DNA of 47,182 nt from a virus. Position numbers and translations under genes: made by a program. This document shows, piece after piece, positions 29,426 to 47,159 of this stretch (position 1 is its first letter; each line of letters opens with the position of its first letter). The notes below the pieces were generated by a model. That model did not search any database and was not told where the DNA came from. It saw only the letters and a program-made list of their open reading frames with translations. The DNA lies in the IMG/VR virus record IMGVR_UViG_3300019124_000041, positions 1 through 47,182 of that record; one strand, given 5' to 3'.

Positions 29426-29722
29426 ATGATCGAAGTTCGCCAGACAGCCGAGTATGCCAAGTGGTTCGACACCCTTCGGGATGTGAACGCCAAGGCCAGG
29501 ATCAACGTCCGCATCCGCCGTCTCTCCCTTGGCAACCCCGGCGATGTGAAGCCGGTGGGTGAAGGCGTCAGTGAGATGCGGGTCGATTACGGCCCCGGCT
29601 ATCGGGTCTACTTCGTTCAGCGTGGTCAGGTTGTGGCTCTTCTGCTCTGTGGTGGCGACAAGAGCAGCCAGAGCCGGGACATCGAAAAGGCGAAAGCCCT
29701 CGCCAAAGAATGGAAGGAGTGA
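29426..29722 (+). CDS. RelE/HigB-type toxin (Gp49-like addiction module killer)
   Basis: 98 residues with the RelE/ParE fold pattern: EYAKWFDTLRDVNAKARINVRIRRL, then VSEMRVDYGPGYRVYFVQRG, then LLLCGGDKSSQSRDIEKAKALA. The GYR-Y and D-K-x-x-Q-x-R-D-I motifs are typical of the Gp49/HigB addiction-module killers, which act as ribosome-dependent mRNA nucleases. The antitoxin gene follows by 4 bases; toxin-first order is normal for this family. Confidence 0.9.
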   Translation: MIEVRQTAEYAKWFDTLRDVNAKARINVRIRRLSLGNPGDVKPVGEGVSEMRVDYGPGYRVYFVQRGQVVALLLCGGDKSSQSRDIEKAKALAKEWKE

Positions 29723-29726
29723 GCAT

Positions 29727-30011
29727 ATGCCCCTCGAAACCAAGCCTTGGGATGCTGCCGAGCACCTCGACAGCGAAGAAGCCATGGCGGCCTATCTCGA
29801 TGCCGCTCTTGAGGATGGAGACCCTGCCCTGATCTCTGCTGCCCTTGGCGATATCGCCAGAGCAAAGGGCATGAGCCAGCTTGCCAGAGAGACCGGGCTT
29901 TCCCGTGAGAGCCTCTATCGGTCTCTCAGTGCAGAGGGCAATCCTGAGCTTGCAACCGTCGTCAAGGTGATGAAGTCGCTCGGGCTCAGGCTCTCTGCAG
30001 TTCCTGTATAA
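29727..30011 (+). CDS. HigA-like antitoxin (addiction module antidote, HTH)
   Basis: 94 residues, ATG at 29727. The N-terminal 35 (PWDAAEHLDSEEAMAAYLDAAL) are the antidote-family entry segment; an XRE-type HTH follows (GMSQLARETGLSRESLYRSLS), then NPELATVVKVMKSLGLRLSA. It neutralises the preceding toxin and, with it, represses the operon at the inverted repeat upstream of 29426. Confidence 0.9.
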   Translation: MPLETKPWDAAEHLDSEEAMAAYLDAALEDGDPALISAALGDIARAKGMSQLARETGLSRESLYRSLSAEGNPELATVVKVMKSLGLRLSAVPV

Positions 30012-30042
30012 GAAAAGCCCCGCGCGATCATCTCGCCGGGGC
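30011..30042 (-). terminator. Intrinsic terminator shared with the end of the leftward 277-residue gene
   Basis: On the minus strand GCCCCG pairs with CGGGGC across a 14-base loop, followed by TTTTCTT. It ends transcription coming leftward from 30154, and its stem may also slow rightward transcription leaving the antitoxin gene. Confidence 0.7.
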
Positions 30043-30153: not shown

Positions 30154-30987
30154 TTAATCCCCATCCGGAAGATCAAGGATCTGGTGAAGGTTCGTTACGC
30201 GATAAGCAACGGGTCGGCCATTGCGCCGCTCAACATTAACGTCCACAACAAACCCGAGCTTGAATACGTTTTCGTCTTGGAACGCCTGCTTGATGCTACG
30301 TTCAGCCATTTCCGAGGCATAGATCACGGGGAGCGGCTTAGTGCTCACTTTCTCAATGACCGCAGCCTCTCCTGTTCTCTTGCCAACTCCGGATACCGAC
30401 TTAGCTGGCCGCTCGAAAAGCATAAGGGCTCGTGGCTCATCCACGCCCTCCTTGCTATCTAGGGTTCGTCTTTGATCCTCAATCGTACGAACGGCGGTTC
30501 TAGCCTCCTGGGACGTGAAGCTCATAATCAGCTCTCGCCTTTCACCATCCTCCTTGAAAACCACTGTTTCAAGTTTGGCACTCCCGTTCGGATCGGTCGC
30601 GACAGCGGTAATTGTATTGGTGACGTGATCAAGTTGAGTCTTCGTGGCTTTCTCCAGCCACTGGCCGGTCACAAAGTTTCTAATCCGCTTGCTGAATATC
30701 GCCCCAAAGCCAAGAACGATCAGTGCGTTATCCATGTACCCGACCATATCGGGGATCGTTGGCACTAGATCAGCGATGATTGACCCAGCTCTGACTTCCC
30801 GCACATAGAGGTTCGCGGTCCCGCGCATCTCCGGATGTTCGGCTTTGAGGAAGTCATCAAACATGCCTGAAAGGCCCGCAAAGACCTTTGCGAACTCTTC
30901 AATTTCGACCGGCTCTTTAAGGTCGAGCGTCAGGGACAGATAGGCGCGGCTCTTTTTCACAGCTTGAGAATAACTAACCCGCGTCAC
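30154..30987 (-). CDS. Unrecognised 277-residue protein with one membrane segment
   Basis: GTG start at 30987 with AGG 6 bases upstream. The N-terminal part is soluble (LSLTLDLKEPVEIEEFAKVF); then NLYVREVRAGSIIADLVPT leads into a single hydrophobic helix (about 82-100). The C-terminal 170 residues are soluble and beta/alpha. The GSI-I-ADLVP entry to a membrane helix recalls small membrane-anchored conflict proteins, but I cannot name a family. It ends in a strong terminator and sits beside a toxin-antitoxin pair in a cargo island, so superinfection exclusion or defence is possible. Confidence 0.6.
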   Translation of the reverse strand: MTRVSYSQAVKKSRAYLSLTLDLKEPVEIEEFAKVFAGLSGMFDDFLKAEHPEMRGTANLYVREVRAGSIIADLVPTIPDMVGYMDNALIVLGFGAIFSKRIRNFVTGQWLEKATKTQLDHVTNTITAVATDPNGSAKLETVVFKEDGERRELIMSFTSQEARTAVRTIEDQRRTLDSKEGVDEPRALMLFERPAKSVSGVGKRTGEAAVIEKVSTKPLPVIYASEMAERSIKQAFQDENVFKLGFVVDVNVERRNGRPVAYRVTNLHQILDLPDGD

Positions 30988-31043
30988 TTGTCACCTGCCT
31001 AGCACGAGTTTGGTGAACGCGCCGCATAGCACCTCGTTGGGCG

Positions 31044-31700
31044 TCATTCCGCGGCTTCCAGCAGATCAACCTCGTCCAGCTTCAACTTCGCCTTCGTCAC
31101 ACCACCGAGAAAGTCGATCAGCACCTCAATACGGCCGCCCGATTGGACCTTCTGCACCACGGCCTGAAGGCCAGTCATGGCGCCGGCGAGAAGGCTGACC
31201 CGAGCACCAGGGCGACACTTGGCCTTGAGCGACTTCTTTCGTGCCTTCTCCTCCTCTTCCCGCTTGATGTGGTCGAACTCCCCTTCACGCTCCCGCTCGC
31301 GCAGGATCTCAAGACGTTTGTGGTGAACTTTGAGAGGCTCACCTTCAAACCTGACGACCTTCTCAACCCCATCGATGCCGCGGAGCTTGTAGAGGTCTTG
31401 CCCGCCTTCCTGGCCGTAGGCCCGGACCCCGAGGAACAGGTACCGCGGCAGAAGCGGGTTTTCGGTCTCTACCTTCCTGCGAGAGCGTATGACGTATTTC
31501 CGTTCCACCGGCAGATAGGTCTGGTATCCAGCGCGACGGAGACCGAGCTGCGCCCTCCTCTCGCACTTGGGATTGCAGACGACGACGAACCAGGTGAAGC
31601 CCTCGAACGTCATCGGAGGCGTGTGGTCGATGATAGGCGAGCGGAAGAAGTGAGCCTGACCGGGAGAGGCAGACAGGGCGAGGCGGGGGAGGTTCGTCAT
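31044..31700 (-). CDS. Phage NusG paralogue (NGN plus KOW domain), possible antiterminator
   Basis: 218 residues; the start at 31700 overlaps the previous stop by 4 bases, and an internal ATG at 31613 is possible. The NGN domain begins at TWFVVVCNPKCERRAQLGLR and runs through TYLPVERKYVIRSRRK, PLLPRYLFLGV and the ILRE helix. The KOW domain is at about 165-210 (CRPGARVSLLAGAMTGLQA, then VLIDFLGGVTKAKL). NusG-type proteins bind RNA polymerase and can make it read through terminators. It is the last core early gene before the late operon, like lambda Q. Confidence 0.87.
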   Translation of the reverse strand: MTNLPRLALSASPGQAHFFRSPIIDHTPPMTFEGFTWFVVVCNPKCERRAQLGLRRAGYQTYLPVERKYVIRSRRKVETENPLLPRYLFLGVRAYGQEGGQDLYKLRGIDGVEKVVRFEGEPLKVHHKRLEILREREREGEFDHIKREEEEKARKKSLKAKCRPGARVSLLAGAMTGLQAVVQKVQSGGRIEVLIDFLGGVTKAKLKLDEVDLLEAAE

Positions 31701-45736: not shown

Positions 45737-45985
45737 ATGGGACAGGTGCAGCACACACGATTGCTGACCCGCGAGGAAGCCGCGGCGCACTGCCATCTAA
45801 GCCCCTCCGGGTTCTCCCGATGGGTAGCCCAAGGGAGGCTCCCCAAGCCCCTGCCTGGCACTCGGCGGTGGGACGTAAGGGCTATCGACCGAGCCCTAGA
45901 CAGGCTTTCCGGCTTATCCGACTCTGAGGCAGGACAAAGCGCCTATGAGCGGTGGAGGGCCAATCGGAATGCGCGTCATGCTTAA
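45737..45985 (+). CDS. Excisionase-like HTH protein (MerR/AlpA type)
   Basis: 82 residues. LLTREEAAAHCHLSPSGFSRWVAQGRLPKPLPGTRRWDVRAIDRALD is a winged MerR-type HTH seen in phage excisionases. It overlaps the integrase start by 17 bases, the usual xis-int arrangement. It would bend att DNA and favour excision. Confidence 0.8.
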   Translation: MGQVQHTRLLTREEAAAHCHLSPSGFSRWVAQGRLPKPLPGTRRWDVRAIDRALDRLSGLSDSEAGQSAYERWRANRNARHA

Positions 45986-47006
45986 GGGAGTGCATCGGGT
46001 GCCGCGGCGGCTCGCGGATGGCACCCGGTCAATCTACTACTATGCCTGGAGAGGCGGCCCACGGCTCCGCGGAGAGCCGGGGAGCCCGGAGTTCATTGAG
46101 AGCTATCAGGAAGCCCACAGGGGCCGGAAGGCCGCTTCCGATGGCACCCTGCACCAGCTCGTGACGGAGTTCCGCGGCAGCAGCGAATACAAGTCGCTGT
46201 CCGATAGTTCCAAGAGAGCCTACCAGACCTATTTGAACCTGATTGATGAAGAGTTCGGAGACTTGCCGCTTGAGGCGCTGACGGCCCCGGAGATCCGCGG
46301 GGATTTCAAAGCGTGGCGCGATGGCATGGCGGATACGCCGCGTAAGGCCGACTACGCCTGGACGGTTCTTGCGCGCGTTCTCTCCGTAGCGAAAGACCGC
46401 GGCAGGATTACCGTCAATCCCTGCGAGCGCGGCGGCAGGCTCTACAAAGCCGAGCGGGCGGAGAAGCTATGGACCGCGGATCATATCTCACGATTTATGG
46501 ACACCGCCTCTGAGGAGCTGCAATTGGCGCTCGTGCTGGCGCTCTGGACAGGACAGCGGCAAGGCGACCTCTTGCGCCTCCCCTGGTCCGCCTATGACGG
46601 CAAGACGATCAAGCTGAAGCAGTCGAAAACGGGGCGACGTGTCGTTATCCCGGTTGGGCCTACACTGCGAGATCATCTCGCAGCGGTGAAGAGGAGAGCC
46701 GTTACGATCCTGACCAACACCGAGGGGAACTCGTGGACGTCCGATGGTTTCCGGGCGTCATGGGGCAAGGCGTGTGAGCGCGCCGGGATAGACGATGTGA
46801 CATTCCACGACATCCGCGGGTCCGCCGTCACGCGGCTGGCTCTTGCTGGCGCCAGCGTCCCGGAGATCGCGTCGCTTACAGGGCACTCGCTGAAGGACGC
46901 GGAAGACATCCTGCAGACGCACTATCTGGGCCGCGATGTGAAGCTCGCGGAGGCTGCAATGCGCAAGAGAGAACGGAAGGAAAGGCGAACGAAGTCTGTA
47001 AAATGA
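45969..47006 (+). CDS. int: Tyrosine-recombinase integrase
   Basis: 345 residues; the ATG at 45969 is chosen because GGAGGG lies 9 bases before it, while 45945 is also open. The N-terminal arm-binding part (GTRSIYYYAWRGGPRLRG) is short; a core-binding helix region follows (about 58-160). The catalytic set is complete: Arg197 (TGQRQGD), Lys220 (KQSKTGR), His280 and Arg283 (FHDIRGS), His306 (TGHS) and Tyr319 (THYLGRD). It inserts the phage at the neighbouring tRNA-Lys. Confidence 0.95.
   Translation: MRVMLKGVHRVPRRLADGTRSIYYYAWRGGPRLRGEPGSPEFIESYQEAHRGRKAASDGTLHQLVTEFRGSSEYKSLSDSSKRAYQTYLNLIDEEFGDLPLEALTAPEIRGDFKAWRDGMADTPRKADYAWTVLARVLSVAKDRGRITVNPCERGGRLYKAERAEKLWTADHISRFMDTASEELQLALVLALWTGQRQGDLLRLPWSAYDGKTIKLKQSKTGRRVVIPVGPTLRDHLAAVKRRAVTILTNTEGNSWTSDGFRASWGKACERAGIDDVTFHDIRGSAVTRLALAGASVPEIASLTGHSLKDAEDILQTHYLGRDVKLAEAAMRKRERKERRTKSVK

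Positions 47007-47083: not shown

Positions 47084-47159
<76 letters not shown>

Follow-up and report, generated by a model that had tools for sequence, protein, structure and literature searches.

Cargo genes of prophages are among the principal reservoirs of anti-phage systems still to be discovered (PMC9519451), and many of those already known derive from Enterobacteria. The second P2 hotspot holds fun together with three systems that Vassallo et al. identified, and DUF6575 is among the domains newly linked to anti-phage activity (PMC9519451). In the PD-T4-10 system of E. coli, which acts against T4, the toxin PD-T4-10B has in common with the DUF6575 proteins their N-terminal DUF6575 domain; in our searches this domain of the DUF6575 proteins matched the PD-T4-10B toxin, and their C-terminal region matched the PADLOC candidate PDC-M63B (best E 1e-8). 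In one E. coli isolate, deleting PDC-M63AB did not detectably alter phage infection and gave no evidence of defence (PMC12409345).

The gene described here lies in a 47-kb virus record (47,182 nucleotides), the whole of which is referred to as the window. Gene order in the window is lambda-like, with a CI-like repressor (36317, plus strand), and a leftward early run, followed on the minus strand by terminase and the late genes. The gene is the final one of the early run and is read on the minus strand from 30987 to 30154, with the GTG start and the 277 codons ascribed to it in a preliminary description made from the sequence. This frame is not a chance one, because shuffling the bases of the stretch 5000 times never left the gene's frame open, its product matches a PHROG family, and phage and bacterial relatives span the product's full length, with roughly coincident starts in the alignment. 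Thus, 30154–30987 is a genuine, conserved coding gene. Its G+C fraction (0.53) is below that of the window (0.60). A Shine-Dalgarno-like GGCAGG (30994–30999, minus strand) is separated from the GTG by a 6-nt spacer, and a promoter match at 30994–30967 was discarded, as it overlaps the start codon and scores near chance. The gene had also been credited with its own terminator, and a Rho-independent terminator-like hairpin with a UUUUCUU tail is indeed found on the minus strand about 112 nt past the stop codon (30010–30042; folding energy −21 kcal/mol, z −3.16), but it is absent from the list produced by a consensus terminator scan.

Upstream, across a gap of 56 bp, a NusG/RfaH-like protein is encoded on the same strand (31044–31700, minus; PF02357, E 3e-12; phrog_6386, transcription antiterminator). 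Judged from its sequence, this phage-encoded protein is probably an antiterminator, and the two genes probably share one leftward early operon. On the other side, the toxin-antitoxin pair reported earlier was confirmed and is convergent with the gene. It consists of an HI1419-type (HigB/RelE-like) toxin of 98 amino acids (29426–29722, plus strand; TIGR02683, E 4.9e-42; PF05973) and an HI1420-type antitoxin (29727–30011, plus strand; TIGR02684, E 3.7e-38, over residues 61–147 of a long ORF), whose start was set at the ATG at 29727, within the longer ORF 29559–30011. The right end of the window carries a tRNA-Lys gene (47084–47159, minus strand), which is adjoined by an ORF of 353 amino acids (45945–47006, plus strand) that is probably an integrase, and this region is likely the attachment site.

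The protein had been regarded as belonging to no family, which did not hold: it is matched along its full length by PHROG 9226, of unknown function (E 3.4e-25; residues 10–273 on positions 7–260 of a 261-position profile). Pfam gave no match to the window protein at any E value up to 1, and searches of Pfam, NCBIfam, PADLOC and PDB sequences yielded nothing usable for it or its relatives. Weak matches to PepSY, Vivid PAS and JetB were rejected, being under threshold or confined to few members. The preliminary description had proposed the gene as a candidate for exclusion or defence and had taken a match to a housekeeping or phage structural family as the outcome that would speak against it; such a match was looked for and none was found among the 37 aligned relatives. 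A search for related loci with the window protein alone as query gave no match, and the relatives were recovered through alignments. The first ones, detected by tblastn, were in Bordetella phage PHB09 (26% identity) and in two prophages, one from Paracoccus and one gonococcal. Alignment-based scans detected 30 loci in viral contigs, several of them near-copies, and 24 bacterial genomes, mostly of Alphaproteobacteria plus Alcaligenaceae and Acinetobacter. Overall, some 20 phage contigs and some 25 bacterial genomes contributed relatives.

Within the family of a Ruegeria genome the gene is carried by 7 of 198 genomes, and a class-wide sample contained it in 2 of 385, both known beforehand; being this sparse, it is accessory. 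Along a tree of 37 proteins the phage and chromosome labels switch at least seven times. Close pairs of the gene are under strong purifying selection, with dN of 0.03–0.06 against dS of 0.6–2.8 in the three for which dS was computable (seven pairs were compared, and dS was saturated in four). Putatively broken copies were also seen, with a short frame in L033 and L053 and one in-frame TGA in L089. At three loci (L005:5896–7189, L035 and L042) the relative is followed by a small DUF6471 gene and an IS1595 transposase in a conserved arrangement. Two records, NZ_CP119140.1 and NZ_AP026896.1, are chromosome-sized yet entered in PLSDB as plasmids.

The segment YVREVRAGSIIADLVP, singled out earlier as conserved-looking, proved to be so, as V62, E64, R66, G68 and S69 are each kept in at least 80% of the 37 relatives. 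Conserved residues in the family include P26, E28, R66, G68, A130, G206, I211, V248-D249-V250, Y262 and H268. No recognisable catalytic set is found among the conserved residues of the 37 relatives, so that a protein that binds is more probable than an enzyme.

Structure prediction, a fold search and a survey of genomic neighbourhoods had been suggested as ways to examine the protein. AlphaFold (AF2; 37 aligned sequences) produced a confident model of a soluble two-domain fold, with a mean pLDDT of 89.6. The predicted N-terminal half (residues ~1–178) is ferredoxin-like, with the conserved RxGS hairpin at 57–77, and the C-terminal part (residues ~181–272) forms an OB-like barrel. This model does not bear out the membrane helix by which the protein had been described as membrane-linked: the supposed membrane segment is part loop and part ordinary helix (84–106), the best 19-residue Kyte-Doolittle window reaches 1.46, below the usual 1.6, and hydropathy exceeds 1.6 in this region in only 10 of the 37 relatives. 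A hydrophobic stretch is nevertheless conserved there across the relatives, and it may mediate peripheral contact with a membrane or a partner. Foldseek gave no match with E <0.001 in the PDB. By VIA-align the best match was a phage SAM lyase (Z 6.6, 109 residues, rmsd 4.1), and residues 180–277 aligned with the OB domain of NlpE (Z 5.4, 83 aligned, rmsd 4.2); a reading of the protein as an enzyme (SAM lyase or cyclase) was rejected, since Z values of 6.6 and 5.4 are in the range of common arrangements.

Against viral models, Foldseek returned two evident family members and then a phage DUF6575 protein (E 3e-7, probability 1.00, TM 0.43, rmsd 8.2), although whole-chain superposition behind the fold link is poor (TM 0.43 and 0.27, rmsd 8 and 18). 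Real DUF6575 proteins were fetched with a DUF6575-like consensus that served as bait only, and conclusions were drawn from the fetched sequences. The proteins and relatives compared came from Oscillatoria, Arthrobacter and Rhodococcus plasmids, a streptococcal satellite phage and phage phiPV83. Judged by eye from sequence, their C-terminal ~250 residues have apparently the same order of strands and helices as the window protein, with a GSF hairpin at the place of its GSI. The PDC-M63B model is weak (pLDDT 57.5, its C-terminal half better), and it has as its best viral Foldseek match the same phage DUF6575 protein (E 4e-8), with the helix-strand order of its C-terminal half as in the window protein. 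The fold search therefore supplied a link to DUF6575 by Foldseek, but this link lacks profile-profile support: hhalign was negative for the window family both against the DUF6575/M63B regions and against stand-alone proteins resembling the C-terminal part of PD-T4-10B. The DUF6575 Pfam model (PF20215) matched neither the window protein (to E 1) nor any of the 37 relatives, and the PDC-M63B profile matched neither it nor them in PADLOC scans. A fold common to the window protein, the C-terminal region of DUF6575 proteins and PDC-M63B is, on these predicted models, likely but inconclusive.

The loci fetched for this comparison showed arrangements of their own. A small gene precedes the DUF6575 gene at L102:1050–2655 (orf62-orf63 of phage phiPV83), L098:3128–4765 and L120:1052–2637, and Oscillatoria, phiPV83 and a gammaproteobacterial genome have partners that look similar, so that this may be a conserved two-gene cassette. 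L095 and L096 encode long proteins, of ~600 amino acids, that fuse DUF6575 with an ImmA/IrrE-type (M78) peptidase. Proteins that stand alone and match the PD-T4-10B toxin model only in its C-terminal part are encoded at L118:1501–2142 (minus strand) and L119:1492–2187 (plus strand), and one of these two genes adjoins an integrase-like gene. In a Klebsiella prophage (L104:2507–3909), a PDC-M63A/M63B pair follows an S24 repressor, which is the position of rex in lambda.

The survey of genomic neighbourhoods revealed cargo-type positions in several independent slots. In the window and in phage PHB09 the copy closes the early region and faces a toxin-antitoxin module (BrnT in PHB09, where the gene comes after the O replication gene). 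In several alphaproteobacterial phages the copy is convergent with an S24-type CI repressor (repressors recognised by eye), and in Acinetobacter phages it lies amid tail genes (also by eye), in one case adjoining a Rha-family gene. A P2-like phage carries it between the tail-fibre and tail-sheath genes (sheath PF04984, E 3e-19), in the order J-I-H-[cargo]-FI with J, I and H assigned by eye. In P2, fun adjoins the sheath gene, and this slot is thus equivalent to the second P2 hotspot, where fun resides. The Caulobacter copy adjoins a tyrosine integrase. In an Alcaligenaceae genome the copy is convergent with a CBASS cyclase and its Cap15 effector, the only clear defence-system neighbour found. 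Lone chromosomal copies follow lepA in four Rhodobacteraceae (Roseobacter/Rhodobacter clade) and occur in Bradyrhizobium, near a PIN_12 gene, and in Rhizobium. Such a distribution would be expected of a prophage cargo gene that bacteria retain now and then.

Taken together, these data may point to a role in phage defence or superinfection exclusion. We tentatively favour the explanation that the gene is a solitary cargo gene (moron) of temperate phages that shields the lysogen, or the bacterium that has retained it, from other phages. The case is made by position, mobility and the lack of any other assignment; relatives were found in prophage cargo slots and defence loci, including the P2 fun hotspot and the place beside CBASS. 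The earlier proposal of an exclusion or defence gene therefore stands as the best fit to the contexts (CBASS, P2 hotspot, CI, integrase and lone chromosomal copies), but PADLOC defence models gave no convincing match among the window protein and its relatives, and PDC-M63AB, the closest fold relative to have been assayed, was inactive in the single published test found. If the gene protects lysogens, its product would act alone and in the cytosol and, having no obvious catalytic motif, would more probably bind than cut. The OB-like barrel could recognise a nucleic acid or a protein from the infecting phage; the half with the ferredoxin-like fold, which has the RxGS hairpin and the hydrophobic stretch, might be an oligomerising or membrane-contacting effector that halts infection.

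Against lysogen protection, the window and PHB09 copies appear to lie in an early lytic operon, away from CI. An accessory early lytic gene, involved in host takeover, counter-defence or the tuning of phage transcription and co-expressed with the NusG-like antiterminator, in the manner of the lambda nin genes, would account for the window copy, which is last in its leftward run and separated from the NusG-like gene by 56 bp, and equally for the PHB09 copy beyond O. We regard this explanation as rather unlikely, given that other phages hold the gene amid tail genes or by an integrase, that bacterial chromosomes keep lone copies, where a lytic function would be useless, and that a NusG-like gene was not noticed beside other copies.

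The lone copies could instead mean that the cargo serves the host outside phage matters, through a metabolic, stress or surface trait. Retention next to lepA in the Roseobacter/Rhodobacter clade would agree with this, as would an acyltransferase-like gene near the copy of one phage. No match to metabolic families was obtained, however, and with one copy adjoining CBASS and another in a known defence hotspot, we judge a general host trait to be improbable. A regulator or stabiliser of lysogeny, tied functionally to the adjoining CI repressor, would explain why several phage loci have the copy convergent with an S24-type repressor, but exclusion genes use the same repressor-side position, the copies of the window, PHB09, Acinetobacter phages and P2-like phages are away from CI, and the lone chromosomal copies have no repressor beside them; this explanation is marginally less probable still. 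That the gene is a third component of the adjoining toxin-antitoxin module, which stands tail-to-tail with it in the window, in PHB09 and in the gonococcal prophage (a HicB-like gene, named by eye), was rejected because the module family varies by locus (HigBA-like, BrnT, HicB-like), and it is very improbable, as the modules are encoded on the other strand and are missing beside most relatives.

Beyond lysogen protection by this one gene, it is possible, albeit doubtful, that PHROG 9226 as a whole constitutes a new anti-phage system, made of a single gene and carried by temperate phages, chiefly those of Alphaproteobacteria, and that the ferredoxin-like plus OB-like architecture that it would have in common with DUF6575 proteins and PDC-M63B is a recurring effector module, used with varied partners or alone. 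The family provides a compact single-gene candidate that lies outside Pfam and PADLOC and is found in phages of Alpha-, Beta- and Gammaproteobacteria. Should it prove active, it would also help to explain what is done by a fold seen repeatedly next to toxin-antitoxin-like genes and candidate defence genes.

Compared with known systems, the gene resembles the exclusion genes fun of P2 and rexAB of lambda in position only (the P2 fun hotspot and the repressor side, respectively). The window protein differs from the DUF6575 proteins in lacking the DUF6575 domain, the small partner gene and similarity at the sequence level. PDC-M63 has the nucleotidyltransferase-like partner M63A, whereas the window gene has instead a NusG-like gene upstream and a toxin-antitoxin pair downstream. 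It differs likewise from PD-T4-10, having neither the DUF6575 N-terminal domain nor an antitoxin partner; there is no PADLOC match of the window protein to that system and no small overlapping partner ORF at the locus, and the link between the two is indirect, because the part that would connect them is missing from the window protein. From PHROG 9226, an uncharacterised family with no assigned function, the protein shows no difference and is simply a member. That family already existed as an unnamed phage family, and what is new is its standing as a candidate defence gene that is single, partnerless and outside Pfam and PADLOC.
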